A stretch of DNA of 64,000 bases. Origin: Crossiella sp. SN42. Its GTDB lineage: Bacteria > Actinomycetota > Actinomycetes > Mycobacteriales > Pseudonocardiaceae. The DNA is taken from contig NZ_JAMHIV010000009.1 of assembly GCF_023897065.1 (NCBI RefSeq), forward strand, positions 1 to 64,000, given 5' to 3'. The position numbers were made by a program, and so were the translations under genes. Below, piece by piece: positions 24,910-58,174 of this stretch. The first letter of the stretch is position 1; every line of letters starts with the position of its first letter. Below the pieces are notes generated by a model that saw only the letters and a program-made list of their open reading frames with translations, was not told where the DNA came from and did not search any database.

Positions 24910-24913
24910 CACC

Positions 24914-24992
24914 CCTGTCGCGACTGGCGTGTTCGGGTGGAACCAACCATCGGGGAGCGGCACGGATCGGTGCGCGCCGTACGCCTGGGCGC
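24914..24992 (+). ncRNA. ZTP/ZMP riboswitch (pfl motif)
   Basis: Senses ZTP/ZMP, the alarmone that signals shortage of 10-formyl-THF. The conserved elements are in order: TCGCGACTGGCG (24918-24929), GGTGGAACC, CGGGGAGCG (24951-24959) and the 3' pseudoknot strand CGCCTGGGC (24982-24990). It lies about 40 nt before glyA, which makes 5,10-methylene-THF, a typical partner of this class. Since the next hairpin region and the Shine-Dalgarno follow directly, control may be at translation or termination. Confidence 0.88.
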
Positions 24993-25031
24993 AGCCGGAA
25001 CCCGTTGCCGTGCCGCGAGGAGGACTCGTCC

Positions 25032-42495: not shown

Positions 42496-43659
42496 TCAGT
42501 CGCCCGGTCGCGGGGCGGTGCGCGTGATCACCGCGACCGCGCGGTCCAGCTCCGCCGCCGACAGGTCCGCCCGCGCGGTCAGCCGCAGCCGCGACACCTG
42601 ATCCGGCACCGACGGCGGCCGGAAACAGCCGACCTGCACGCCCTCCGCCCGGCACCGCCCGGCCCACGCCACCGCCTCCACCGGCGAGGGCGCGCGCACC
42701 GACACCACCGCCGCGCTCGGCGAGCTGACCGCCAGCCCGGCCGCGCCCAGCCGCTCCGCCAGCTCCCGCGCCACCGCCCGGGACCGCCCGGCCAGCTCCG
42801 GCTCGCCGCGCAGCACCCGCAGCGCGGCCAGCGCGCCACCCGCGCAGGCCGGGGCCAGGCCGGTGTCGAAGATGAACCCGCGCGCGGTGTCCACCAGGTG
42901 CGCGATCACCCGCCGCGGCCCGAGCACCGCCCCGCCCTGGCTGCCCAGCGACTTGGACAGCGTGGTGGTGACCACCACGTCCGGCGCCCCGGCCAGCCCG
43001 GCCGCGTGCACCCCGCCGCGCCCGCCCTCGCCCAGCACGCCCAGCCCGTGCGCGTCGTCGACCACCAGCGCCGCGCCGTGCGCCCGGCAGGCCGCGGCCA
43101 GCTCGGCCAGCGGCGCCAGGTCGCCGTCGACGGAGAACACCGAGTCGGTCACCACCAGGGCGCGCTTCTTCACCCGCTCGGCCAGCAACCGGGCCACCCT
43201 GGCCGGATCGCGGTGCCCGGCCTCGGCCGTCTCGGCGCGGGACAACCGGCAGCCGTCGATCAGCGAGGCGTGGTTGTGCGCGTCCGCGACCAGCACCGTG
43301 CCCGGCCCGGACAACGCGGTGAGCGCGCCGAGGTTGGCCAGGAAACCGGAGGAGAAGACCAGCGCGGCCTCCGCCCCGCAGTGCTCGGCCAGCTCGTGCT
43401 CCAGCTCCGCGTGCAGCTCGGTCGAGCCCGTGACCAGCCGCGATCCCGTGGCGCCCGCGCCCCAGCGGCGGGCGGCGGCCGCGGCGGCCTCGGTGATCCG
43501 GGGGTCCCGGGTGAGGCCGAGGTAGTCGTTGGAGGCCAGGTCCAGCAGGTCCGCGGACCCGGCGGCGCGCGGCCGCAGCGAGCGGGTCAGCCCGGCCTTG
43601 GCACGGGCCCGCGAGCGGGTGTCCAGCCAGCCGAAGACGTCGTTGGTGGTCGAGGTCAC
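42496..43659 (-). CDS. bioF: 8-amino-7-oxononanoate synthase
   Basis: PLP enzyme that condenses pimeloyl thioester with alanine, the first step of biotin ring assembly. The 387 residues have the alpha-oxoamine synthase marks: SNDYLGLT near residue 44, TGSRLVTG, DDAHGLGVLG and the PLP Lys in TTTLSKSLGSQGG. Related enzymes (Kbl, HemA) share these, but length and context fit BioF best. GTG start at 43659. It is divergent from a cytochrome P450 38 bp away; no bioA, bioD or bioB is in the window. Confidence 0.85.
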   Translation of the reverse strand: MTSTTNDVFGWLDTRSRARAKAGLTRSLRPRAAGSADLLDLASNDYLGLTRDPRITEAAAAAARRWGAGATGSRLVTGSTELHAELEHELAEHCGAEAALVFSSGFLANLGALTALSGPGTVLVADAHNHASLIDGCRLSRAETAEAGHRDPARVARLLAERVKKRALVVTDSVFSVDGDLAPLAELAAACRAHGAALVVDDAHGLGVLGEGGRGGVHAAGLAGAPDVVVTTTLSKSLGSQGGAVLGPRRVIAHLVDTARGFIFDTGLAPACAGGALAALRVLRGEPELAGRSRAVARELAERLGAAGLAVSSPSAAVVSVRAPSPVEAVAWAGRCRAEGVQVGCFRPPSVPDQVSRLRLTARADLSAAELDRAVAVITRTAPRPGD

Positions 43660-43684
43660 GCCCGGAGTGTCGCATCAGCCGGGC

Positions 43685-43690
43685 TACCGT
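43685..43690 (+). promoter_or_regulatory. -10 box for a leaderless P450 gene
   Basis: TACCGT ends 7 nt before the GTG at 43698 with no Shine-Dalgarno. Confidence 0.55.
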
Positions 43691-43697
43691 TCTGCCC

Positions 43698-44927
43698 GTG
43701 CGGGCAGCGCGGCGTTCCCTCGACGACCTGGACCTCTTCGGTCCGGGTTTTGTCAGCGACCCCTGGCCGCACCTGGCCGAGCTGCGCGAGCGCGCCCCCG
43801 TGCACCACGACCGGCACACCGGGCTGTGGTTGGTCAGCAGGCACGCCGACATCCGCGCCGTGCTGGCCGACCCCGCCGGGTTCGTGCCGGACAACGCGCT
43901 CACCGCGATCACCCCGGTCCCGCCGCCGCAGCTGCGCGTGCTGGCCAGGGCCCGGTTCTCGCTGCCGCCCACGCTGGCCAACAACGGCACCGACAGCCAC
44001 ACCGGCCTGCGTCGCCTGGTCGCCGGCTACTTCACCCCGGCCAAGGTGCGCGCCGCCGAACCCCGCATCCGCGCCCTCGCTGACGAGTACCTGGACCGCC
44101 TGCCGGCCACCGGCGAGTTCGACCTGGTCGCCGGGCTGGCCGCGGAGCTGCCCTGCCGGGTGCTGCTGGAGCTGCTCGGCATCACCGGAGTCGACCTGCC
44201 GGTGCTCAAGGCGTGGAGCGCGGCCTCGCTGGAACTGTTCTGGGGCCGCCCCGGCCCCGGCCGCCACCAGGCCCTCGCGGAGGCGGCGGGGGAGTTCCAC
44301 CAGTGGCTGGCCGCCCGCATCCGCGCCGCCACCCCCGGCAGCCCCGACCTGTTCGGCCAGCTCGCCGCGCACCGCGCGCCCGGCGACCGGCCGCTGCGCG
44401 TGGCCGAGGCGGTCGGCGTCTGCTACTTCCTGCTCATCGCCGGTCAGGAGACCACCAGCCAGCTGCTCAGCACCCTGCTGCACCGGCTCATCCCGCGCAC
44501 CGACCTGTGGTCGCGCCTGGCCGCCGGTGACCAGGAGCTGGCCGCGGCCTGTGTGGAGGAGGTGCTGCGCCGCGAACCGCCGGTGAACACCTGGCGCCGC
44601 GTCGCCGCCCGCCCGGCCACCCTGTCCGGGGTGCGGGTGCCACAGGGCGCGCACCTGCTGCTCCTGCTCGCCGGCGCGGGCTCGGACCCGGAGGTCTTCA
44701 CCGACCCCGAGTCCTTCTGCCCGGCCCGCCCCGACCCGCGCCGCCACCTGGCCTTCGGCCACGGCCGCCACTTCTGCCTCGGCGCCGGACTGGCCAGGAC
44801 GGAGGCCGCCGTGGTGCTCACCGAGGTGGCCCGGCGGCTGCCGCGGCTGCGTCTGCTGGAGCCGGAACCGCCGATGCTCGGCCTGCTCTCCTTCCGCGCC
44901 CCGCTGCGCGTGCTGGCCAGCCGATGA
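43698..44927 (+). CDS. cytochrome P450
   Basis: A 409-residue soluble bacterial P450. The I-helix oxygen-binding motif is AGQETT, the ExxR motif is in EEVLRREPP, and the haem-ligand Cys is in FGHGRHFCLGAGLAR. It needs an external ferredoxin and reductase, neither of which is adjacent. It is divergent from bioF, as a BioI-like P450 would be in a biotin setting, but the sequence does not prove that, and a role in secondary metabolism is equally possible. The start is a leaderless-looking GTG. Confidence 0.93.
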   Translation: MRAARRSLDDLDLFGPGFVSDPWPHLAELRERAPVHHDRHTGLWLVSRHADIRAVLADPAGFVPDNALTAITPVPPPQLRVLARARFSLPPTLANNGTDSHTGLRRLVAGYFTPAKVRAAEPRIRALADEYLDRLPATGEFDLVAGLAAELPCRVLLELLGITGVDLPVLKAWSAASLELFWGRPGPGRHQALAEAAGEFHQWLAARIRAATPGSPDLFGQLAAHRAPGDRPLRVAEAVGVCYFLLIAGQETTSQLLSTLLHRLIPRTDLWSRLAAGDQELAAACVEEVLRREPPVNTWRRVAARPATLSGVRVPQGAHLLLLLAGAGSDPEVFTDPESFCPARPDPRRHLAFGHGRHFCLGAGLARTEAAVVLTEVARRLPRLRLLEPEPPMLGLLSFRAPLRVLASR

Positions 44928-44989
44928 CAAGCGTGATCAGCGAGACGGCCTGAGCCGCCCGATCGTGTGCGACGATGCGAACTGCTTTG

Positions 44990-45091
44990 TCAGCGAGGGG
45001 TGAGCGAGGAACCCGGTGCGAGTCCGGGACGGTCCCGCCACTGTGACCGGAACGGTTTCGTCAGGAACGGTTCCGGGAGTCAGGAGACTCG
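44990..45091 (+). ncRNA. cobalamin (adenosylcobalamin) riboswitch
   Basis: Conserved elements in order: GAGGAACCCGGTGCGAGTCCGG (starting 45006; given as its parts GAGGAA, CGGTG and AGTCCGG), CGGTCCCGCCACTGTGA (45030-45046) and the closing GAGTCAGGAGAC (45077-45088). These are the B12-box core and the junction. It should turn the chelatase-cobO-cobB mRNA off when AdoCbl is high. Confidence 0.93.
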
Positions 45092-45125
45092 TCCCCCTCG
45101 GCCTCCCGACCCGGGCGTGGACACC

Positions 45126-45143: not shown

Positions 45144-47132
45144 ATGACCGTCGGCTACCCGTTCTCCGCTGTGGTCGGACACCCCGACCTCCGGCTCGCC
45201 CTGCTGCTCAACGCCGTCCACCCCGGTATCGGCGGGGTGCTGGTGCGCGGGGAGAAGGGCACCGCGAAGTCGACCATCGTGCGCGGCCTGGCCGCCCTGC
45301 TGCCACCGGCCGAGGTGGTCGAGCACTGCCGCTTCGCCTGCGACCCGGCCCGCCCCGACCCGAACTGCCCGGACGCCCCGCACGACGGCGCGGCCACCAC
45401 CCGCCCGGCCCGGCTGGTCGAGCTGCCGGTTGGCGCCACCGAGGACCGCCTGGTCGGCTCGCTGGACCTGGAACGCGCGCTCACCGAGGGTGTCCGCGCC
45501 TATCAGCCGGGCCTGCTCGCGGCCGCGCACCGCGGCGTGCTCTACGTGGACGAGGTCAACCTGCTGCACGACCACCTGGTCGACCTGCTGCTGGACGCCG
45601 CCGCCATGGGCCGCGCGCACGTCGAACGCGAAGGCGTGTCCATCTCGCACGCGGCCAGCTTCCTGCTGGTGGGCACGATGAACCCGGAGGAGGGCGAGCT
45701 GCGGCCGCAGCTGCTGGACCGCTTCGGCCTCACCGTCACCGTGCTCGCCGCCCGGGACACCGACACTCGCACCGAGGTGGTCCGCCGCCGACTGGCCTAC
45801 GAGGCCGACCCGGCAGGGTTCGCCGCCCGGTTCGCCCCCGACGACCGCGACCTGGCCGCCCGCATCGCCACCGCCCGCGCCGCTTTGTCAGCGGTCGTGC
45901 TGCCCGATGTGGAGCTGCGCCGGATCGCCGCGCTGTGCGCCGCGTTCGAGGTCGACGGCATGCGCGCGGACCTGGTGGTGGCCCGCACCGCGCTCGCGCA
46001 TGCCGCCTGGCGCGGCGCGGCCGAGGTCGACGCGAGCGACATCGAGGTCGCCGCCCGCCTCGCCCTGCCGCACCGCAAGCGCCGCGACCCCTTCGACGAG
46101 CCCGGCCTGGAGGAGGAGCAGCTCCAGCAGGCCCTCGCCGCCGCGGCCGAGGAAGCCGAACCGCCGCCGCCGGACCCCGATGACGACCCCAACGGCCCCG
46201 GCGGCGGCCAGGACCACGGCGAGGACGCCACTCCGCCCGCCGACGGCCAGCAGGCCGCTACTGACAACCAGTCCAGCCCTTCCGGCGACCAGCCCTCGGG
46301 CGGCGGCGAACAGGCCCCGGCCGCCCCGGCACCCGCCTTCCGCGCCCGCCTGCTCCAGGTCCCCGGCCTCGGCGAGGGCGCGCCCGGCCGCCGGTCCCGG
46401 TCCCGCTCGGAGTTCGGCCGGGTGGTCCGTCCGTCCACAGTGGACGGCCACGGCCTGCACCTGTCCGCCACCGTCGCCGCGGCCGCCCCGCACCAGGCCG
46501 GTCGCGGCCGCACCGGACCCGGCCTGCTGCTGCGCGGTGAGGACGTGCGCCGCGCGGTCCGCGAGGGCAAGGAGGGCAACCTGGTGCTCTTCGCGGTGGA
46601 CGCCTCCGGCTCGATGGCCGCCCGCAAGCGGATGTCCGCGGTCAGCGGCGCGGTGCTGTCCCTGCTCCGGGACGCCTACCAGCGCAGGGACAAGGTCGGT
46701 CTGGTCACCTTCCGCGGCGGTGGCGCCGAGCTGACCCTGCCGCCGACCTCCTCGGTGGACGCGGCCGCCGCCCGGCTCAAGCGGCTGCGCACCGGCGGCC
46801 GCACCCCGCTGGCCGAGGGCCTGCTGCGCGCCCGCAAGACCCTGGCCGCCGAACGCCTGCGCGACCCGCGCCGCCGTCCGCTGCTGGTCGTGGTCACCGA
46901 CGGCCGCGCCACCGTCGGCGTGCACGGCGACCCGGTCCGCGACGCCCTGCGCGCCGCCGCGCTGCTGGCCGCCGACGGCGTCGCCGCGATCGTGGTGGAC
47001 TGCGAGCACGGCATGGTCCGCCTCGGCCTGGCCGCCCGGCTCGCGCTCGCCCTGGGCGCGACCTGCCTGAGCCTCGACGAGTTGTCCGCCGACCGCATGG
47101 CAGGCGTCGTGCGCGCCGCCCGCGCGGCCTGA
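45144..47132 (+). CDS. AAA/VWA chelatase (Mg/Co-chelatase ChlI-ChlD-like fusion)
   Basis: A 662-residue protein joining a ChlI-like AAA+ ATPase (Walker [11 protein letters not shown]; Walker B LYVDEVN; sensor GTMNPEEGE) with a C-terminal VWA domain whose MIDAS is DASGSM. The linker (about 315-450) is Pro/Ala/Gln-rich. From context it probably partners CobN for aerobic cobalt insertion, as the mycobacterial ortholog (next to cobO/cobB) is presumed to; cobN is not in the window. It is the first gene after the cobalamin riboswitch, with SD AGGAAGGA about 8 nt before the ATG. Confidence 0.9.
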
Positions 47133-47148: not shown

Positions 47149-47763
47149 ATGCCCCAAGGACAGCCGACCAGTGTGCCCGCCGACGGCCTGACCACCCGGC
47201 AACGCCGCAACCGGCCGCTGCTGGTGGTGCACACCGGCGAGATGAAGGGCAAGTCCACCGCCGCGTTCGGCATGGCGCTGCGCGGCTGGAACCAGGGCTG
47301 GTCCATCGGCGTGTTCCAGTTCGTCAAGTCAGCCAAGTGGAAGGTCGGCGAGGAAGAGGCCTTCCGCGCGCTCGGCCGCCTGCACGAGCAGACCGGCGAG
47401 GGCGGCGCGGTCGAGTGGCACAAGATGGGCGAGGGCTGGTCCTGGACCCGCAAGAAGGGCACCGAGACCGACCACGCCGAGGCCGCCCGCGAAGGCTGGC
47501 AGGAGATCGCCCGCCGCCTCGCCGAGGCCCGGCACGGCATGTACGTGCTGGACGAGTTCACCTATCCCATGCACTGGGGCTGGGTCGACGTCGAGGAGGT
47601 CGTGGCCGCCCTGAGCGATCGCCCCGGGCACCAGCACGTGATCATCACCGGCCGGTACGCGCCGCCCGCGCTGCTGGAGGCCGCCGACCTGGTGGTGGAG
47701 ATGACCAAGGTCAAGCACCCGATGGACGCCGGGCAGAAGGGACAGCGGGGGATCGAGTGGTAG
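47149..47763 (+). CDS. cobO: cob(I)yrinic acid a,c-diamide adenosyltransferase
   Basis: Adds the 5'-deoxyadenosyl group to cobalt. The 204 residues are typical CobO/BtuR-type: the P-loop is GEMKGKSTAAFG, followed by a VFQFVKSAKWKVGEEEAF stretch and a conserved FTYPMHWGWVD. A GGAGGAAACCCG leader sets the ATG at 47149, 16 bp after the chelatase stop. The stop overlaps cobB. Order chelatase-cobO-cobB matches mycobacteria. Confidence 0.96.
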   Translation: MPQGQPTSVPADGLTTRQRRNRPLLVVHTGEMKGKSTAAFGMALRGWNQGWSIGVFQFVKSAKWKVGEEEAFRALGRLHEQTGEGGAVEWHKMGEGWSWTRKKGTETDHAEAAREGWQEIARRLAEARHGMYVLDEFTYPMHWGWVDVEEVVAALSDRPGHQHVIITGRYAPPALLEAADLVVEMTKVKHPMDAGQKGQRGIEW

Positions 47764-49115
47764 CCCGGCTGGTCATCGCCGCCCCCGGCTCCGGCGCCGG
47801 CAAGACCACGGTGGCCACCGGCCTGATGGCCGCGCTGCGCAGGCGCGGACTGCGGGTCGCGCCGGGCAAGGTCGGCCCCGACTACATCGACCCCGGCTAC
47901 CACGCGCTGGCCACCGGTCGTCCCGGCCGCAACCTGGACCCGGTGCTCTGCGGCGAGGACCGCGTCCGCCCGCTGTTCGCCCACGGCGCGCGGGAGGCCG
48001 ACCTGGCCGTCATCGAGGGCGTGATGGGCCTGTTCGACGGCCGCCTGGGCACCCCGGGCCACGGCTCCACCGCGCACGTGGCCACCCTGCTGGACGCGCC
48101 GGTCGTGCTCGTGGTCGACGCGCGCGGGCAAAGCCGCAGCCTGGCCGCGCTGCTGCACGGGTTCCGCAGCTACGACCCGGCTGTGCGGATCGCCGGGGTG
48201 CTGCTCAACAAGGTCGGCTCCGAACGGCACACCCAGGTGCTCAGCGAGGCCTGCGCCGAGGTCGGCCTGGACGTGCTCGGCAGCCTGCCCCGCGACCCGG
48301 CCTTCGAGCTGCCCTCCCGGCACCTCGGCCTGGTCACCGCCGCCGAACACGGCCGCGCCGCCACCGAGGTGGTGGACGCCCTCGCGGACAAGGTCGCCGG
48401 CGCGGTCGACCTGGACGCGGTCCTGCGCCTGGCCCGCTCCGCCCCGCCCCTGCCGCCCGCGACCTGGGACCCGGGCCTCGACCCGGACCCGAGACGACCG
48501 GTCATCTCCATCGCCGGCGGCGCCGCGTTCACCTTCGGCTACGCCGAGCACGCCGAGCTGCTCACCGCCGCGGGCGCGGAGGTCGCGGTGTTCGATCCAC
48601 TGCGCGCCGAGTCCCTGCCCGAGGGCACCGCCGGACTCGTGCTGCCCGGCGGCTTCCCGGAACAGCACGCCGAGGAGCTCTCCGCCAACGCCCCGCTGCG
48701 CGCCGCGGTCGCCGCGCTGGCCACCGCGGGCGCGCCCGTGCACGCCGAATGCGGCGGCCTGCTCTACCTGGCCCGCGAGCTCGACGGCCGCCCCATGTGC
48801 GGCGTGCTGCCCGCCGACGCCCGGATGACCCCCAAGCTCACCCTGGGCTACCGGGACGCGGTCGCGATCACCGACTCCGTGCTGCAGCAGGCCGGAACGC
48901 GCCGCACCGCACACGAGTTCCACCGCACCGAACTCGTCCCGGCCGCGAGCGACACGGCGGCCTGGGCCTGGCGGCAGGACGGCCACCCGCGCGCCGAGGG
49001 CTACGTGCTCGGCGGCGTGCACGCCTCCTACCTGCACACCCACCCCGCCGAGGACCCGGCCGCGATCGCCCGCTTTGTCAGGCACTGCGCAGAGTTCGCC
49101 ACCCGTGAACCCTGA
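47757..49115 (+). CDS. cobB: cobyrinic acid a,c-diamide synthase
   Basis: Glutamine- and ATP-dependent amidation of (hydrogeno)byrinic acid at the a and c side chains. The 452 residues show the N-terminal ATPase (APGSGAGKTTVATG; VGPDYIDPGYH) and a C-terminal glutaminase with Cys in HAECGGLLYLA and LPGGFPEQHAEEL. The GTG at 47757 overlaps cobO by 7 bp, so coupling is likely. A 297-bp gap to cobM follows. It fits the aerobic route used by CobM and CobL here. Confidence 0.95.
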   Translation: MVARLVIAAPGSGAGKTTVATGLMAALRRRGLRVAPGKVGPDYIDPGYHALATGRPGRNLDPVLCGEDRVRPLFAHGAREADLAVIEGVMGLFDGRLGTPGHGSTAHVATLLDAPVVLVVDARGQSRSLAALLHGFRSYDPAVRIAGVLLNKVGSERHTQVLSEACAEVGLDVLGSLPRDPAFELPSRHLGLVTAAEHGRAATEVVDALADKVAGAVDLDAVLRLARSAPPLPPATWDPGLDPDPRRPVISIAGGAAFTFGYAEHAELLTAAGAEVAVFDPLRAESLPEGTAGLVLPGGFPEQHAEELSANAPLRAAVAALATAGAPVHAECGGLLYLARELDGRPMCGVLPADARMTPKLTLGYRDAVAITDSVLQQAGTRRTAHEFHRTELVPAASDTAAWAWRQDGHPRAEGYVLGGVHASYLHTHPAEDPAAIARFVRHCAEFATREP

Positions 49116-49412: not shown

Positions 49413-50846
49413 GTGAGTGGTCGGATCTCGTTCATCGGCGCGGGGCCCGGTGCCGCCGACCTGATCACGTTGCGGGGCGCGCGACGGATCGCCGAGGCGG
49501 ACATCGTGGTGTGGTCGCCCGCCGTGGTCGACGCCGACTGCGTGCGCGAACACGCCGGCCCGGACGCCGAGCTGGTCGACTGCTCCCGGGTGAACCACGA
49601 ACAGGTCCTCGAGGTCTACCGCAGGGCCGCGGTGAAGAAGCAGTCGGTGGTCCGCCTGCACTCCGGCGACGCCGCCCTGTGGGGCGCGGTGCAGGACCAG
49701 TACGACGCCGCGCAGAAGATCGGCCTGGAAGTCGAGATCATCCCCGGCGTCTCCGCCCTCGCCGCCGCGGCAGCCGGCGCCGGGCGTGAGCTGAGCCCAC
49801 TCGCCGACTCCGCCCCCGTGGTGCTGACCAGGCCCGAGGGCGACACCGGCGCCCTGCCCGACGGCGCCAAGCTGCGCGAGCTGGCCGCCCACGGCGGCAC
49901 CATGGCCGTCGCCCTGTCCGCGGCCCGCACCGAGCAGCTGGTCGAGGAACTGCGCGCGGGCGGCTACGCCGAGGACACCCCGGTCGTGGTGGCCTACAAG
50001 ACCAGCTGGCCCGACGAGCTCCTGGTGCAGACCACCCTCGGCGATCTGGCCGGCACGGTCAAGGACCACAAGCTCTGGCGCCAGACCCTGTTCCTCATCG
50101 GCCAGGTCCTGCGCCCCGGCAGCCAGCGCGCCCGGCTCTACCAGCCCGGCACCCGCCCCACGAGCTACCGCCGCGGCGACTTCACCGCCCGCCGAGCCGA
50201 ACGCCTCGCCGCCGCCCAGCCCCCGGACCAGGTCGTCGAGGCCGAGGCCCCGGCCGCCACCCCCAGCACCCGCTGGTCCGGCCGCGACCAGCTCGAGTCC
50301 ACCCGCTCCTCCCGCGCAGGCGCTCGCTACCGCACCGGCGCCTCCAAGCGCGCCGCCGCCGCGGCCGCCACCCGCTCCGGCCAGGTGACCCTGGCGCTGC
50401 ACGAGCGGAAGCGCGCTCCCCAGGCCGACGCCGGCACGCAAACCCCTGCGGCCCAAGAACTTCCGGCCACGCACGCGGCTGACACCGGCCCACGGCCCGT
50501 CGGCGCTCAGTCCAACGATGGCCAACTTGCCGGAACCCGGCCCGCCAGCGCCGAGTCCGCGAGCACCCGGCCAACTAGCGCCCAGTCCTCGAGCCCGCAG
50601 TCCGCGAGCGCCCGGCCCGCCAGCGCCTCGGACGCGAGCCCCCAGCCCACTTCCCCCGCCCCGGCCCCACGAGTCGAGACCGTCAAGGTCGCCGTCTCCG
50701 TCGAGGCGCCCCACAGCGAACCGCAGGCGGCCACCCCGGCCAAGCCCGCGGTGAAAGCGCCCGCGGCGGCCAAGTCCACCGCGGGCAAGAGCAAGGCGAA
50801 GTCCACCGCCACCCGGCGGACCAAACGGACTCCGCGGAACAGCTGA
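49413..50846 (+). CDS. cobM: precorrin-4 C11-methyltransferase with long disordered C-terminus
   Basis: SAM-dependent methylation of precorrin-4 at C-11 in aerobic B12 synthesis. The first about 250 residues are a normal tetrapyrrole methylase: FIGAGPGAADLITLRG, VRLHSGDAALWGA and IIPGVSALAAAAA. CobM and CbiF normally end there, but this protein goes on to 477 residues with a tail rich in Ala, Ser, Pro, Thr and, at the end, Lys/Arg (KSTAGKSKAKSTATRRTKR). The tail keeps the local GC-rich codon bias, so it is probably translated, not a frameshift artefact. A GTG start at 49413 follows AGAGGGGAACAGTT. It may be a nucleic-acid-binding or disordered tail. Confidence 0.9.
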   Translation: MSGRISFIGAGPGAADLITLRGARRIAEADIVVWSPAVVDADCVREHAGPDAELVDCSRVNHEQVLEVYRRAAVKKQSVVRLHSGDAALWGAVQDQYDAAQKIGLEVEIIPGVSALAAAAAGAGRELSPLADSAPVVLTRPEGDTGALPDGAKLRELAAHGGTMAVALSAARTEQLVEELRAGGYAEDTPVVVAYKTSWPDELLVQTTLGDLAGTVKDHKLWRQTLFLIGQVLRPGSQRARLYQPGTRPTSYRRGDFTARRAERLAAAQPPDQVVEAEAPAATPSTRWSGRDQLESTRSSRAGARYRTGASKRAAAAAATRSGQVTLALHERKRAPQADAGTQTPAAQELPATHAADTGPRPVGAQSNDGQLAGTRPASAESASTRPTSAQSSSPQSASARPASASDASPQPTSPAPAPRVETVKVAVSVEAPHSEPQAATPAKPAVKAPAAAKSTAGKSKAKSTATRRTKRTPRNS

Positions 50847-51025
50847 CCCGATGACGGCCGACGACGACTTAGCGGGACGCGCGGCGTCACCGCCGCCGGC
50901 CTGCCGCCACTCGGGTACTTCAACGGTTCATCGGCGAGCCGAGCCAGCGGATCCGGCGCGGCGTTGCCATGATCGACTTCAGGGCGGCCGGTGGTGGCCG
51001 TAACCGAGGCGGAGTGGGTGGCGAC

Positions 51026-52234
51026 ATGACGGTCACGGTGGTCGGCGTCGACGGCGGTCCCCTGGTCCCCGACGCGCAGAAAGCCCTTGCCGACGCGCGT
51101 TTGGTCATCGGCAAGCGCCGGTTGCTGGAACTCCACGCGCCCGAGGGGGCGCGCCGGATCGAGCTCGGTCCGGCCGGGCCCGCGCTCGCCGCACTCGGCG
51201 CGCTCACCGACGAGGACGGTCCCGCCGTGGTGCTCGACCACGGCGACCCTGGTTTCTTCGGCGTCCTGCGGGAGATCCGGGCGCACAACATCCGCGCCCA
51301 GGTGGTGCCCGCGCTGTCCACCGTGCAACGCCTGCTCGCCCGCGTCGGCCGTCCCAGCGACGACGTCACGGTGGTCAACGCGCTCGGCCGCGAACTGCGC
51401 AAGGCGCTCAACGTCTGCCGCGCCCGCCCCGCGGTCGCGGTGTTCACCGAGGGGGTGGCCGGTCCCGCCGAGATCGCCGCCGGTCTGCTGGGCTGGCGGC
51501 GCACCCTGATCGTGGCCGAGGACCTCGGCGGCCCCGATGAGAAGGTCACCTCGATCTCCCCGGCCAAGGCCGCGAAGCGCCGCTGGAAGGACCCGAACCT
51601 GGTGCTGTGCCTGACCGATCCGGGTCTGGTGCCGGAACCGGGCTGGTACCTCGGCGGCGAGCCGGTGCCCGCGGTCGGCGGCTGGGCACTGCCCGAAGAG
51701 GCCTTCGCCCACCGCGACGGCATGGTCGCCGGCGCCGAGGTGCGCGCGGTCGCGCTGGCCAGGCTCGCGCCGCGGCCGGGCATGCTGGTGTGGGACGTCG
51801 GCGCGGGCTCCGGCGCGATCGGTGTCGAATGTGGACGGTTGGGCGCCGCGGTGATCGCGGTCGAGCGCAACCCGGTGCACACCATGCGGATCGTGGCCAA
51901 CGCGGTCAACCACGGCGTGGACGTCCGCACGGTCGAGGGCGAGGCCCCCGCGGTGCTCTCCGGCCTGCCCACCCCGGACGCGGTGTACGTCGGCGGCGGC
52001 GGCCCCAAGGTCGTCGAGGCCTGCGCCGCGGTCGGCGCGGAACGCGTCGTGGTCGGCCTCAACGCCCTGGACGAGGTCGCCTCCTGCCGCAACGCGCTGC
52101 GTGCCGGCGGCTACCAGGTCGACGGCTGCCAGCTCACCGCCGCCCGCCTCAGCACCCTGGCCGACGGCTCCAGCACCCTCACCGCGGTCAACCCGACCAC
52201 CCTGCTGTTCGGCCGCCGCGAGGACGCCGGATAG
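51026..52234 (+). CDS. cobL: precorrin-6Y C5,15-methyltransferase (CbiE-CbiT fusion)
   Basis: Two-site methylation of precorrin-6B at C-5 and C-15 with decarboxylation of the C-12 acetate. The 402 residues join a CbiE-type tetrapyrrole methylase (about 1-205; HGDPGFFGVL, VPALSTVQRL) and a CbiT Rossmann methyltransferase (about 225-402; WDVGAGSGAIGVE). I chose the ATG at 51026, where family similarity starts; an ATG at 50969 would add 19 unrelated residues. A 179-bp gap separates it from cobM; the next gene starts 9 nt after its stop. Confidence 0.92.
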   Translation: MTVTVVGVDGGPLVPDAQKALADARLVIGKRRLLELHAPEGARRIELGPAGPALAALGALTDEDGPAVVLDHGDPGFFGVLREIRAHNIRAQVVPALSTVQRLLARVGRPSDDVTVVNALGRELRKALNVCRARPAVAVFTEGVAGPAEIAAGLLGWRRTLIVAEDLGGPDEKVTSISPAKAAKRRWKDPNLVLCLTDPGLVPEPGWYLGGEPVPAVGGWALPEEAFAHRDGMVAGAEVRAVALARLAPRPGMLVWDVGAGSGAIGVECGRLGAAVIAVERNPVHTMRIVANAVNHGVDVRTVEGEAPAVLSGLPTPDAVYVGGGGPKVVEACAAVGAERVVVGLNALDEVASCRNALRAGGYQVDGCQLTAARLSTLADGSSTLTAVNPTTLLFGRREDAG

Positions 52235-52243: not shown

Positions 52244-54592
52244 GTGATCGGGCTGTTCGCGGCGAGCGCCGCCGGAAGGCAAGCCGCCGCTGAACTCGCC
52301 GGCCGCCTCGGCCCGGCCGCCGTCCTCGCCGACGGCCCCATCCGCCCCGCCCTGGAACGCCTGTGGCCCCAACTGGACGCCGCGGTCTTCCTGCTCGCCA
52401 CCGACTCGGCCATCCGCCTGGTCGCCCCCCTGCTGCGGGAACGCCACAACGACCCGGCCGTGGTCTGCGTCGACGAGGCCGAACGCTTCGCGGTGGCCCT
52501 CATCGACGGCCCAGCTGGCAACGCCCGCGACCTGGCCGCGCAGGTGGCCGAGATCCTCGGCGGCACCGCAGTGGTCACCGCCGCCGACCACGCCACCGGC
52601 ACCACCCCGCTGGACGACCTGGTCGAACTCCTCGACGCCGCGGTGGACGGCGACCTCACCGCCTGCGGCGCCGCCGTCCTGGCCGGCGAACGCGTCCGCC
52701 TGGCCAACCCCCTCGGCTTCCCCCTGCCCGCCCTGCCGTCCAACATCCTGCTCGCCAACGCCCCCCTCGGCGACGAGAGTCCACAGTGGACGATCCTGCT
52801 GGACGACCGCCTGCCCAGCCCTGAACCCGACGGCCACGTGCTGCGCATCGTCCCGCGCACCCTGATCGTCGGTGTCGGCTCCACCAGCGGCGTGTCCACC
52901 ACCGCCGTCACCACCGCGGTCGCCGCCCTGACCGACGAGCACCGCCTGGACCACCGCGCCATCCTCGCCTTCGCCACCGTCGAGGCGAAGGCCACCGAAC
53001 CCGGCATCCTCGAAGCGGTCGAGGACCACGGCTTCTGGACCGCCCGCACCCCCCGCCTGCTGCACTACGCGGCCACCACCCTGGCCACCATCCCCGTCCC
53101 CAACCCCAGCCCGCACACCCACACCACCACCGGCACCCCCAGCGTCGCCGAGGCCGCCGCCCTGCACGCCGCCGCCACCCTCGCCCACGGCGCCCCCACC
53201 GAACTCGCCGCCGAGAAAACCATTCGTGGCAACGTCACCGTCGCCGCCGCCCGCATCCGCCCGCGGGGCCGCCTGGCCGTGATCGACCTCGGCCCCGGCA
53301 ACCCAGACCTCCGCGTCCCCCGCGCCGAAACCGAACTCCGCAAGGCCGCCGTGGTGGTCGGCACCGAGGACACCCTCAACCAGGTCCGCACCCTGGTCCG
53401 CCCCGGCACCGAACTCTGGTCCAGCGGCAACCCGGAGGAAGCGGCTCGGCAGGCAGTCGAGCTGGCCACCGCCGGCCGCGCCGTGGCCCTGCTGAGCCCA
53501 ACAGCCCCAGCCACCGGCCCAGAAGTCACCGTGGTCACCGTCCCGGGCCTGTCCCCAGCAGCGGTCGCGGCAACCACATTGTTGAGCACCCCAGCCACCG
53601 CGTCACCCAGCGACAGCGCGCACCAGACCGCCGAGCCACCCCACCCGGCCGCCACCCCGGACAGCAACACCGAGCCGACCACGAGCGCCGACCCAGGTCC
53701 GGCCAGCACCCAGCCCGGCAACACCCCAGCGCGCCCGGACACACCGGCGCACGCGGGCGCACCATCGCTCGCAGACACTCCAGTGTTCGCAGAGACGTCG
53801 CCCGACGCGGAGGCACCACCCCACGCGGAGGCACCACCCCACGCGGAGGCACCACCGCATGCAGATGCACCGCCCCACGCGGAGGCACCACCCCACGCGG
53901 AGGCACCACCGCATGCAGATGCACCGCCCCACGCGGAGGCACCACCCCACGCGGAGGCACCACCGCATGCAGATGCACCGCCCCACGTGAAGGCACCACC
54001 GCACGCAGAGGCACCACCGCATGCGGAGACGCCGCCGCACGCGGACATGTCACCGCACACCGACATGCCGCTGCAGACGGGCACCCCACCGCATACAGGT
54101 GCGCCACCGCACCGAGGCCCGCAAGTAGCCCCCGACACGGCGTCAGCCCTCGGTGCGGCACCGCATCCCGGCGCCTCGTCACACCCCGGCACGGCACCGC
54201 GTCTCACTGCGGCGCTCGCCCCGGGCGCGGCGTCGGATGTGCAAGCAGCACCTCATGGCGGCGCGACCGCGCCCGGCGGCCACATCGAGCTGACCCTGTC
54301 CGCGACCGAACCATGGCCCGTACAGGAACAGCGTCTCCGTGTGCTCGCCGCGAGCGATCTGCCGTTGCGGCTGAGTCCCACGACCGCCTGGCGAACCTGG
54401 GCGGACGAGGTCCTCACGGTATTGCTGGAGTCCCGTGGACCGAACACCCCTGCCGGTGTGGTCCGCGATCCGGGCCGGCCCGATCAGACCGCCCGGTGGA
54501 TTCCGCTGGCCGAGTTGGACCCGGCCGATTTCGACGCTAGCACCGCCGTCGTGATCGGTGTTCCGGTTGTCCACAGGGGTGCGGGCCGCTGA
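52244..54592 (+). CDS. CbiG-CobJ fusion with a low-complexity insert splitting the CobJ domain
   Basis: A 782-residue protein. Residues about 1-325 are CbiG-like (LATDSAIRLVAPLL; PVPNPSPHTHTTTGTPSVAEAAAL). Residues about 342-447 look like the N-lobe of a CobJ/CbiH C17-methyltransferase (DLGPGNPDL; VPGLSPAAVAA). Residues about 448-679 are Ala/Pro/Thr/His-rich low complexity with H-A-E/D-A-P-P repeats. Residues 680-782 resume the C-lobe (PAGVVRDPGRPDQT; TAVVIGVPVV). The usual GGDPG loop is absent (LSPTAPATG in its place), so methyltransferase activity is doubtful. The frame is open throughout. GTG start at 52244, 9 nt after cobL. Confidence 0.82.
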   Translation: MIGLFAASAAGRQAAAELAGRLGPAAVLADGPIRPALERLWPQLDAAVFLLATDSAIRLVAPLLRERHNDPAVVCVDEAERFAVALIDGPAGNARDLAAQVAEILGGTAVVTAADHATGTTPLDDLVELLDAAVDGDLTACGAAVLAGERVRLANPLGFPLPALPSNILLANAPLGDESPQWTILLDDRLPSPEPDGHVLRIVPRTLIVGVGSTSGVSTTAVTTAVAALTDEHRLDHRAILAFATVEAKATEPGILEAVEDHGFWTARTPRLLHYAATTLATIPVPNPSPHTHTTTGTPSVAEAAALHAAATLAHGAPTELAAEKTIRGNVTVAAARIRPRGRLAVIDLGPGNPDLRVPRAETELRKAAVVVGTEDTLNQVRTLVRPGTELWSSGNPEEAARQAVELATAGRAVALLSPTAPATGPEVTVVTVPGLSPAAVAATTLLSTPATASPSDSAHQTAEPPHPAATPDSNTEPTTSADPGPASTQPGNTPARPDTPAHAGAPSLADTPVFAETSPDAEAPPHAEAPPHAEAPPHADAPPHAEAPPHAEAPPHADAPPHAEAPPHAEAPPHADAPPHVKAPPHAEAPPHAETPPHADMSPHTDMPLQTGTPPHTGAPPHRGPQVAPDTASALGAAPHPGASSHPGTAPRLTAALAPGAASDVQAAPHGGATAPGGHIELTLSATEPWPVQEQRLRVLAASDLPLRLSPTTAWRTWADEVLTVLLESRGPNTPAGVVRDPGRPDQTARWIPLAELDPADFDASTAVVIGVPVVHRGAGR
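53822..53983 (+). repeat. three exact 54-bp tandem repeats inside the CbiG-CobJ gene
   Basis: Identical copies at 53822-53875, 53876-53929 and 53930-53983, each coding HAEAPP-HAEAPP-HADAPP. Degenerate 18-bp units extend on both sides (from 53804 to about 54109). The exact identity implies recent amplification. Confidence 0.95.
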
Positions 54593-56802: not shown

Positions 56803-56911
56803 TCGCCATGTCAGCACGGTGAATATTCCACTCGACGGGTGGCTATGGTCATCGACACAGCTCGGTGACGTGATCGTGGACTTCGCCGCGCGCCGGGGCA
56901 TGCTGTCTGCC

Positions 56912-58174
56912 ATGCACGCAGAGCACCACTATCTGGCCGGGCTGGACCTCACCGGCCGCCGGGTTGTCGTCATCGGCGCCGGGACCGTCGCCCAGCGCCG
57001 CCTGCCCAGGTTGGTCGCGGTCGGCGCGGCGGTCGAAGTGATCGCCCCCGAGGCGACTCCCGCGGTGGATGCCATGGCCCAGTCCGGCGAGATCACCTGG
57101 ACCCGGCGACGCTACGCCGAGGGCGACCTGGACGCCGCCTGGTACGCGCTGGCCTGCGCGGACGACCCGGAGGTCAACGCCGCGGTGGTCGCCGAGGCCG
57201 AGGCGCGGCGGGTGTTCTGCGTGCGCGCCGACATCGGCGCCAAGGGCACCGCGGTCACGCCCGCGATGGGGGAGCACGACGGGCTGCTGCTCGGGGTGCT
57301 CTCCGGTGGACGGCCGCTGCGCTCCGCGGCGGTGCGCGACACCGTGCTGGACGCGTTGCGCACCGGGCTGCTCGACGACGCCCACGAGCGCACCGCCGAG
57401 CGGGCAGGCGAGGACAGCGTGGCCGGTGAGCTGCCGGGTGTCGCTCTGGTCGGCGGTGGTCCCGGCGACCCGGAGCTGATCACCGTGCGCGGCCGGCGGC
57501 TGCTGGCCAGGGCGGATGTGGTGGTCGCCGACCGGCTGGCCCCGCGTGAGCTGCTGGAGGACCTGCCGCCGCAGGTCGAGGTCGTCGACGCGGCGAAGAT
57601 TCCGTACGGGCGCGCCGCCAGCCAGGAGTTCATCAACCGGACCCTGATCGAGAACGCGCTGGCCGGGAAGTTCGTCGTCCGGTTGAAGGGCGGCGACTCC
57701 TACGTCTTCGGGCGCGGTTTCGAGGAGCTCATCGCCTGCGCCGAGGCCGGTGTGCCGGTCACCGTGGTGCCGGGGGTGACCAGCGCGTTCGCCGTGCCGG
57801 CGCTGGCCGAGGTGCCGGTGACGCATCGCGGGGTGGCGCACGAGGTGGTGGTGGTCTCCGGGCACGTCGCACCGGATGACCCGCGTTCGCTGGTGGACTG
57901 GTCGCTGCTGGCGCGGATGCGCGGCACGCTCGTGCTGCTGATGGCGGTGGAGCGGGCCGAGGTGTTCGCCGCCGCGCTGGTGGAGCACGGCAGGCCCGCG
58001 GACACGCCGGTCGCGGTGATCCAGGAAGGCGCGACGCGGAGTCAGCGCGTGCTGCGCTGCACGCTGGACCGGCTCGGCGCGGCGATCAAGGACGAGGACA
58101 TCCGGCCGCCCGCGATCATCGTGGTCGGGCCGGTCGCGGGACTCGCCGCGGAGCTGCCCGGCCGCTCCGGCTGA
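56912..58174 (+). CDS. cysG: siroheme synthase / uroporphyrinogen-III C-methyltransferase (CysG-type)
   Basis: A 420-residue fusion. Residues about 1-165 are the NAD-binding precorrin-2 dehydrogenase-ferrochelatase module (VVVIGAGTVAQRRLPRL). Residues about 175-410 are SUMT (VGGGPGDPELITVRG; RLKGGDSYVFGRG; VPGVTSAFAVPALA). It turns uroporphyrinogen III to precorrin-2, the branch point to both siroheme and B12. In mycobacteria cysG follows cobB directly; here cobM, cobL, cbiG-cobJ and the OYE pair lie between. I chose ATG 56912, where a CATGCT box ends 7 nt upstream. An in-frame ATG lies at 56900. Confidence 0.9.
   Translation: MHAEHHYLAGLDLTGRRVVVIGAGTVAQRRLPRLVAVGAAVEVIAPEATPAVDAMAQSGEITWTRRRYAEGDLDAAWYALACADDPEVNAAVVAEAEARRVFCVRADIGAKGTAVTPAMGEHDGLLLGVLSGGRPLRSAAVRDTVLDALRTGLLDDAHERTAERAGEDSVAGELPGVALVGGGPGDPELITVRGRRLLARADVVVADRLAPRELLEDLPPQVEVVDAAKIPYGRAASQEFINRTLIENALAGKFVVRLKGGDSYVFGRGFEELIACAEAGVPVTVVPGVTSAFAVPALAEVPVTHRGVAHEVVVVSGHVAPDDPRSLVDWSLLARMRGTLVLLMAVERAEVFAAALVEHGRPADTPVAVIQEGATRSQRVLRCTLDRLGAAIKDEDIRPPAIIVVGPVAGLAAELPGRSG

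Follow-up and report, generated by a model that had tools for sequence, protein, structure and literature searches.

The last gene of a cobalamin operon in Crossiella sp. SN42 is an inactivated form of the CbiG-CobJ fusion, which is itself common in actinobacteria, and we consider it probable that a bifunctional B12 enzyme, after redundancy of its activities, turned into a selected non-catalytic protein that is perhaps CobE-like. The gene lies in the stretch of 64,000 nucleotides analyzed here (hereafter the window). The genome holds a separate B12 set that makes the fusion redundant, conserved motifs have been lost from both halves of the protein, and the reading frame, selection and the place of the gene in the operon have been retained.

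The fusion gene is a single open frame on the forward strand, running from a GTG at 52244 to a stop codon at 54592 and encoding 782 amino acids (Table 1). Both domains that define membership of CbiG passed the Pfam cut-offs, CbiG_N at residues 37-114 (80.7 bits, cut-off 25) and CbiG_C at residues 207-336 (87.5 bits, cut-off 27), and TP_methylase matched residues 344-419 (28.9 bits, cut-off 27.8). The NCBIfam CbiG equivalog, run on this protein only, reached 105.3 bits at best, under its cut-off of 326. Both CobJ lobes were found, separated by an insert of 228 residues, and the NCBIfam model cobJ_cbiH (TIGR01466) gave the whole protein 69.3 bits, far under the cut-off of 246.35, in two stretches of which residues 658-773 was the better. 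Because each lobe scored singly also matches this model (37.6 bits, E 1.7e-9, and 37.9 bits, E 1.4e-9), residues 680-782 are CobJ-derived, and the solved CobJ-type structures 2zvb and 3nut likewise have their best sequence match in the C-lobe region; a C-lobe unrelated to CobJ, which the first-pass annotation had named as one result that would overturn its reading, is ruled out by these scores and matches. The layout given in that annotation (one frame with a CbiG-like part, a CobJ N-lobe, a low-complexity stretch and a CobJ C-lobe) was confirmed by the frame and the profile matches, except that the CbiG part reaches approximately residue 336 and does not end at 325. Third-position GC drops from 0.90-0.96 across residues 1-380 to 0.64-0.76 across residues 481-783, which cover the insert and the C-lobe.

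Table 1. Cobalamin-related features of the window and parts of the CbiG-CobJ fusion.
Feature	Position	Strand	Basis and remarks
Cobalamin riboswitch ahead of operon	44962..45110	+	Rfam RF00174, 58.7 bits, gathering score 31.5
ChlI/ChlD-like chelatase subunit	45144..47132	+	Pfam Mg_chelatase, AAA_lid_2, VWA; start probably at 45144
cobO, corrinoid adenosyltransferase	47149..47763	+	Pfam CobA_CobO_BtuR, 199.4 bits
cobB, cobyrinate a,c-diamide synthase	47760..49115	+	Pfam CbiA + GATase_3
cobM copy (second in genome), eroded motifs, basic low-complexity tail	49413..50846	+	TIGR01465, 238.4 bits (cut-off 259.65); motif census; tail composition
cobL copy (second in genome), CbiE and CbiT halves	50969..52234	+	TIGR02467 (CbiE), 115.1 (cut-off 92.9); TIGR02469 (CbiT), 68.4 (cut-off 78.3)
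CbiG-like part of fusion, residues 1-336	52244..53251	+	Pfam, motif and structure-sequence matches; without GGHxGG motif; C-terminal domain CobE-like (residues about 204-336)
CobJ-like N-lobe, residues 342-450, without SAM loop	53267..53593	+	NCBIfam profile, motif census
Low-complexity insert, residues 448-675	53585..54268	+	Composition: acidic, 10% His, 25% Pro, 24% Ala
In-frame 18-bp/54-bp tandem repeat within insert	53801..54045	+	Repeat search; residues about 520-601 (about 82 residues), 13.6 copies
CobJ-like C-lobe, residues 676-782 (CobJ match to about 774)	54269..54589	+	NCBIfam profile, motif census, structure-sequence matches
cysG-type uroporphyrinogen methyltransferase, not contiguous with operon	56819..58174	+	TIGR01469, 263.2 bits (cut-off 185)

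The motifs of the fusion were compared in a census of 97 rows, from which L145, L146 and L147 were dropped as copies of G001, G019 and G014, leaving 67 intact and 27 inactivated fusions. The SAM loop of CobJ relatives, SGD(A/P)G(V/I)(Y/F), was found in 66 of the 67 intact fusions, (F/Y)NP(R/A)S in all 67 and GGHxG(G/R) of the CbiG N-domain in 64, and each of the three was found in none of the 27 inactivated fusions. The SAM-loop motif is absent from the fusion of the window, as previously noticed in the first-pass annotation, which had taken GGDPG as the reference form where CobJ relatives read SGD(A/P)G(V/I)(Y/F). At the place of the CbiG GGHxGG the window has IDGPAGNAR, so a conserved motif of the CbiG half has been lost too, a point absent from that annotation, and wherever the CobJ half is inactivated in the census, the motif of the CbiG N-domain is gone too. 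The putative catalytic roles of these motifs are suggested by their conservation, and the loss of the SAM loop and NPRS bears out, at the level of sequence, the earlier proposal that the CobJ half is inactive.

Near-invariant sites were counted over the rows of the same census, 27 inactivated and 67 intact; the L175-L224 loci, which are mostly Streptomyces, supply 50 of the latter. The fraction of these sites that inactivated fusions retained was highest in the middle of CbiG (0.92) and in CbiG_C (0.90), followed by CbiG_N (0.69), the CobJ N-lobe (0.67) and the CobJ C-lobe (0.57). Losses focus on motif residues, the heaviest being H90 (kept in 1 of 11), K67 (3 of 27) and CobJ LDQY (0-2 of 21), and many glycine and proline sites are retained; the retained residues probably hold the fold. 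A CobJ model built from six intact CobJ domains gave bimodal scores, 382-453 bits for intact and 0-270 bits for inactivated rows.

A search of the 9.72-Mb genome (82 contigs) returned one CobJ over the cut-off, an intact CobI-CobJ fusion on another contig (C7:137888-139363; 278.8 bits as a genome match and 320.5 bits as a protein against TIGR01466), and the second CobJ that had been expected elsewhere was thus located. Both its CobI and its CobJ are over the NCBIfam cut-offs; adjoining it are CobH (350.5 bits, over the cut-off) and CobG (216.9 bits, under the cut-off of 234.8), and CobK lies near it on the opposite strand (340.7 bits, over the cut-off). Approximately 9 to 11 kb past this fusion there are a second CobL with both halves over the cut-off (156.4 bits for TIGR02467 and 118 bits for TIGR02469) and CobM (300.7 bits, over), while CobF was found at C1:254982 (313 bits, over). 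The genome therefore holds a separate oxygen-dependent set composed of CobG, CobH, CobI-CobJ, CobK, CobL, CobM and CobF. As PMC7242693 reviews it, CobG of the oxygen-dependent route forms a gamma-lactone and CobF then takes away the carbon that is extruded, whereas CbiG opens a delta-lactone in the anaerobic route; with this set present, and given the difference between CobG/CobF and CbiG chemistry, the two activities of the window's fusion are not needed.

Across the family, the state of the fusion goes together with whether or not a genome has a second CobJ, a relation that the first-pass annotation did not contain. The scan of relatives took the best 80 of 490, so that the distribution is a sample, and the first survey covered 41 genomes (the own genome and 40 relatives), of which 34 have a single CobJ over the cut-off and seven have none. 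Seventeen carry the fusion or at least the whole CbiG part, not counting G005, G008 and G009, which have little beyond CbiG_C; in five of the 17 an intact fusion is the sole intact CobJ, and in 12 the fusion is inactivated and one intact CobJ lies elsewhere. A second survey, which covered 26 of the 27 genomes reached via named loci (L149 left out) and overlaps the first by one genome, Gandjariella (G019 = G041), gave 11 intact and 15 inactivated fusions, five of the latter with the CbiG part only, under the same rule with no exceptions and no genome with two intact CobJ. CobG presence was judged by match extent, since sulfite reductases match the model too and most CobG matches are under the cut-off; on this basis CobG-type matches accompany inactivated fusions in 11 of 12 and 13 of 15 genomes (pieces only in G010 and G053) and intact fusions in 0 of 5 and 0 of 11. 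No CobG-type match was found in G021 or in either Kutzneria genome in the two surveys.

Intact fusions occur, among others, in Streptomyces, Micromonospora, Pseudonocardia, Gandjariella, Solihabitans and four Saccharopolyspora, and inactivated ones in Crossiella, Allokutzneria, Saccharopolyspora rosea, Umezawaea, Saccharothrix, Actinosynnema, Lentzea, Kibdelosporangium and Kutzneria. The inactivated forms are diverse: in Allokutzneria, S. rosea and G004 the protein is full length with contiguous lobes and the motifs gone; in Lentzea, Saccharothrix, Actinosynnema, Umezawaea and others it ends about 90 residues into the CobJ N-lobe; in Kutzneria and Kibdelosporangium it ends after CbiG with no CobJ half in frame; and in G021 a stop codon stands immediately past the CbiG part, again with no in-frame CobJ half. 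The split of the CobJ lobes by an insert was found in Crossiella, where the SAM loop is missing and the frame is open in all four genomes. A tree of CobO and CobB from 19 genomes (the fragment of G014 has no such genes) needs two changes of state at the fewest, but its starred branches force only one and it leaves the backbone unresolved, so that inactivation may have occurred once or several times. The records titled Rhodococcus rhodnii NRRL B-16535 (L168) and Candidatus Melainabacteria (L147) have Kibdelosporangium-like and Pseudonocardiaceae-like loci, respectively, and look mislabelled.

Selection within Crossiella was estimated as Nei-Gojobori dN/dS from four genomes and five of their six pairs. 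Values for the fusion were 0.03-0.16 in CbiG_N, 0.14-0.33 in the middle of CbiG, 0.24-0.57 in CbiG_C, 0.23-0.56 in the CobJ N-lobe and 0.27-0.50 in the C-lobe (up to 0.38-0.50 in comparisons with G003). The cobM copy gave 0.11-0.32 in its core and 0.44-0.74 in its tail, the cobL copy 0.04-0.22, and other genes of the region 0.04-0.28 (cobO), 0.17-0.24 (cobB) and 0.08-0.16 (cysG); in the second set, CobI, CobJ, CobK, CobL and CobM gave 0.07-0.31 (0.07-0.22 for the working CobJ) and CobG 0.20-0.45. Simulated neutral evolution yielded medians of 0.92-1.73 with 2.5% bounds of 0.44-0.92. Judged against the working genes and these bounds, CbiG_N and the cobM and cobL copies are therefore constrained like working genes, and both CobJ lobes are relaxed yet not free on point estimates with wide bootstrap ranges, that of the N-lobe against G003 (0.34-0.93) overlapping the neutral simulation. 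Neither the broken frame nor the neutrality of a pseudogene was found, CbiG lying far below and the CobJ lobes mostly below the neutral bounds. Among the pairs listed for other genera, Lentzea (L160, L161, L163) and the nearby G010 gave 0.06-0.14 for CbiG_C and 0.07-0.17 for the truncated CobJ remnant, Kibdelosporangium (L167/L168) gave 0.02-0.07 and Kutzneria (L171/L172) 0.16-0.36. Cross-genus comparisons comprised 245 inactivated and 1909 intact pairs with dS of 0.1-0.9, and we relied on the within-genus pairs because dS flattens across genera. The earlier suggestion that the CobJ domain is structural or inactive thus holds for inactivity, the motifs being lost, and a structural role is possible since the lobes look constrained.

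The insert between the lobes differs in length among the Crossiella genomes, with 228 residues in the window, 219 in G002, 43 in G001 and none at that site in G003, which instead has a low-complexity stretch of 56 residues in an earlier loop. Its dN/dS is 0.52-0.98, and the copies of the 54-bp repeat are 93% alike; the insert probably grew through tandem duplication. Since neither length nor sequence is conserved, the insert is read as a tolerated, fast-evolving and weakly constrained linker and not as a selected module, and the former proposal that it mediates assembly with other proteins found no support in these values. Its net charge is -21 against +17 for the tail of the cobM copy in the window; this complementarity of charge is recorded as an observation only; the tails of relatives span -6 to +28 and one of them occurs in G019, a genome with an intact fusion.

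The fusion closes a run of genes led by a riboswitch and composed of the chelatase, cobO, cobB, the cobM copy, the cobL copy and the fusion, and the cysG-type gene lies 2.2 kb downstream behind an FMN oxidoreductase gene. Erosion is also seen in the adjoining copies of cobM and cobL, a point that the first-pass annotation had not reported: the cobM copy and the CbiT half of the cobL copy are under their cut-offs, the CbiE half is over, and the copies on contig C7 are all over. Because its CbiE half is over the cut-off, the cobL copy may still be active. In inactivated lineages the cobM copy retained 0.76 of its near-invariant sites (24 rows; GAGPG kept in 24 of 24, K145 in 0 of 9, A36 in 4 of 24) and the cobL copy 0.81 (27 rows), with its CbiT glycine motif mostly kept. 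Stops in eight of 27 cobL matches were considered as a sign of decay and discarded, as all eight stand either ahead of the probable start or where the gene naturally ends.

Some features of the neighborhood may be recorded in their own right. The tail of the window's cobM copy has about 227 residues and a net charge of +17, tails of 90-388 residues (net -6 to +28) occur in 15 of the 19 proteins compared, including one from a genome with an intact fusion, and the cobM of contig C7, one of the 19, has no tail. In L063, L064 and L065 (G024, G023 and G010) the cobL copy aligns with that of the window only from residue 113-150 on, the CbiT half being kept and much of CbiE lost. A ZMP/ZTP riboswitch (61 bits) was found at 24910-24997 of the window, and immediately ahead of the B12 operon, at 42496-44927, an aminotransferase-like gene (class I/II) on the reverse strand stands back to back with a cytochrome P450 gene on the forward strand, a pair that presumably resembles the biotin-type BioF/BioI pair. 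A scan for phage families returned no matches.

With regard to what the fusion may do, the CobE crystal structures 2w6k (E 4.1e-5) and 2w6l (E 2e-5) match residues 198-338 by sequence, this CbiG_C domain is the sole one found in the own genome, and in G005, G008 and G009 the CbiG_C domain alone remains, in place after cobL; on these grounds, a CobE-like role of the CbiG C-terminal domain would be the most likely form of an accessory function. The stand-alone CbiG_C that follows the cobL copy in L072 (G005) continues in frame into a cysteine-rich, ferredoxin-like stretch. Within Crossiella the most constrained part of CbiG is CbiG_N, with CbiG_C less constrained, opposite to what a simple CobE reading would lead one to expect. 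Moreover, 10 of the 41 genomes combine an intact CobJ with the complete lack of a CbiG_C domain, so that a CobE-like part is dispensable, and hydrogenobyrinic acid has been made with CobG and without CobE (PMC5282855).

Taken together, the ancestor was probably a CbiG-CobJ fusion of the kind that serves many actinobacteria as sole CobJ, and with a second B12 set present both its CobJ step (ring contraction and C17-methylation) and its CbiG lactone opening became redundant. Motif and SAM-loop residues were lost from both halves while residues that probably hold the fold were kept; the product would be a protein that assists corrin synthesis without catalysis of its own, and in it the CobJ lobes may serve as a folded appendage or contact surface. 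We infer that the protein is made, that its role is non-catalytic and which domain carries that role; our confidence in this general reading stays only somewhat above even, because the support for CobE is weighed against the constraint on CbiG_N, the genomes free of CbiG_C and the result in PMC5282855. A broader version, in which possession of a second B12 route made the neighboring CobM, CobL and CbiG-CobJ copies, family-wide and perhaps several times, into co-selected non-catalytic paralogues that assist the working enzymes, e.g., by passing unstable corrin intermediates along through contacts of the CobJ-derived lobes, the disordered acidic linker and the basic CobM tail, is speculative and rather doubtful.

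Slow pseudogene decay, by which a functionless CobJ half would stay in frame only through GC-rich sequence and selection on the upstream CbiG, is possible but unlikely. The lower third-position GC of the insert and C-lobe, the dN/dS of the insert and that of the C-lobe against G003 agree with it, as do the loss of the C-lobe in other genera and of the whole in-frame CobJ half in G021, Kutzneria and Kibdelosporangium. However, the point estimates of both lobes are mostly under the neutral 2.5% bounds, the frame is open in all Crossiella genomes and the Lentzea CobJ remnant is as constrained as the working Crossiella CobJ, so that the selection test weakens plain decay as a full account. That CbiG_N and the two copies, cobM and cobL, are under purifying selection equal to that on the working set, and that the cobM copy keeps GAGPG and the cobL copy most of the CbiT glycine motif, could also reflect a divergent CobJ/CbiG that acts on another corrinoid intermediate through altered residues; such an activity is improbable given that the SAM loop, NPRS, CbiG GGH and nearly all of CobJ LDQY are gone from inactivated fusions and that up to 228 residues separate the CobJ lobes. 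An assembly or sequencing artefact, which the first-pass annotation had kept in view, might be suspected from the closely similar repeat copies in a draft of 82 contigs, but it is extremely improbable, because the SAM loop is also absent from the other three Crossiella genomes, of which G002 and G003 are single-contig, and the insertion at that site differs among them (219, 43 and 0 residues), that of G002 being similarly long and of low complexity.

Searches of the literature returned no corrin-pathway pseudoenzyme, no paper combining Crossiella and cobalamin and no description of an inactivated CbiG-CobJ fusion, although subscription papers were mostly outside the search and an earlier description is possible. 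The favored reading, a redundant enzyme retained as a non-catalytic protein, gains interest from the graded states of this one fusion (intact, inactivated at full length, split by an insert, truncated, or reduced to the CobE-like domain), a comparative set that makes testable the role of CobE and whether enzymes of redundant pathways persist as non-catalytic partners. Besides, a label such as 'precorrin-3B methyltransferase' on inactivated fusions would be wrong.

Among known systems, pseudoenzymes in general likewise keep the signature of the fold, lose catalytic motifs and remain under selection, as described in PMC5106787 and PMC10211241. CobE is a small stand-alone protein (chains of 145 and 142 residues in 2w6k and 2w6l), whereas the domain here lies within 782 residues and stands alone only in relatives such as G009. 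The CobI-CobJ fusion, found here on contig C7 and known as cobIJ of mycobacteria (PMC8192938), has a CobJ domain homologous to the two lobes of the window, but it is over the CobJ cut-off, fused to CobI and placed beside cobG and cobH. The closest counterpart is the actinobacterial CbiG-CobJ fusion of Streptomyces, Micromonospora, Pseudonocardia and four of five Saccharopolyspora, which has the same domain order and, as the fusion or part of it, follows cobL in the mapped loci, as in the window; its intact members have contiguous CobJ lobes, the SAM loop and mostly GGHxGG, whereas the fusion of the window has lost all three and gained an insert.
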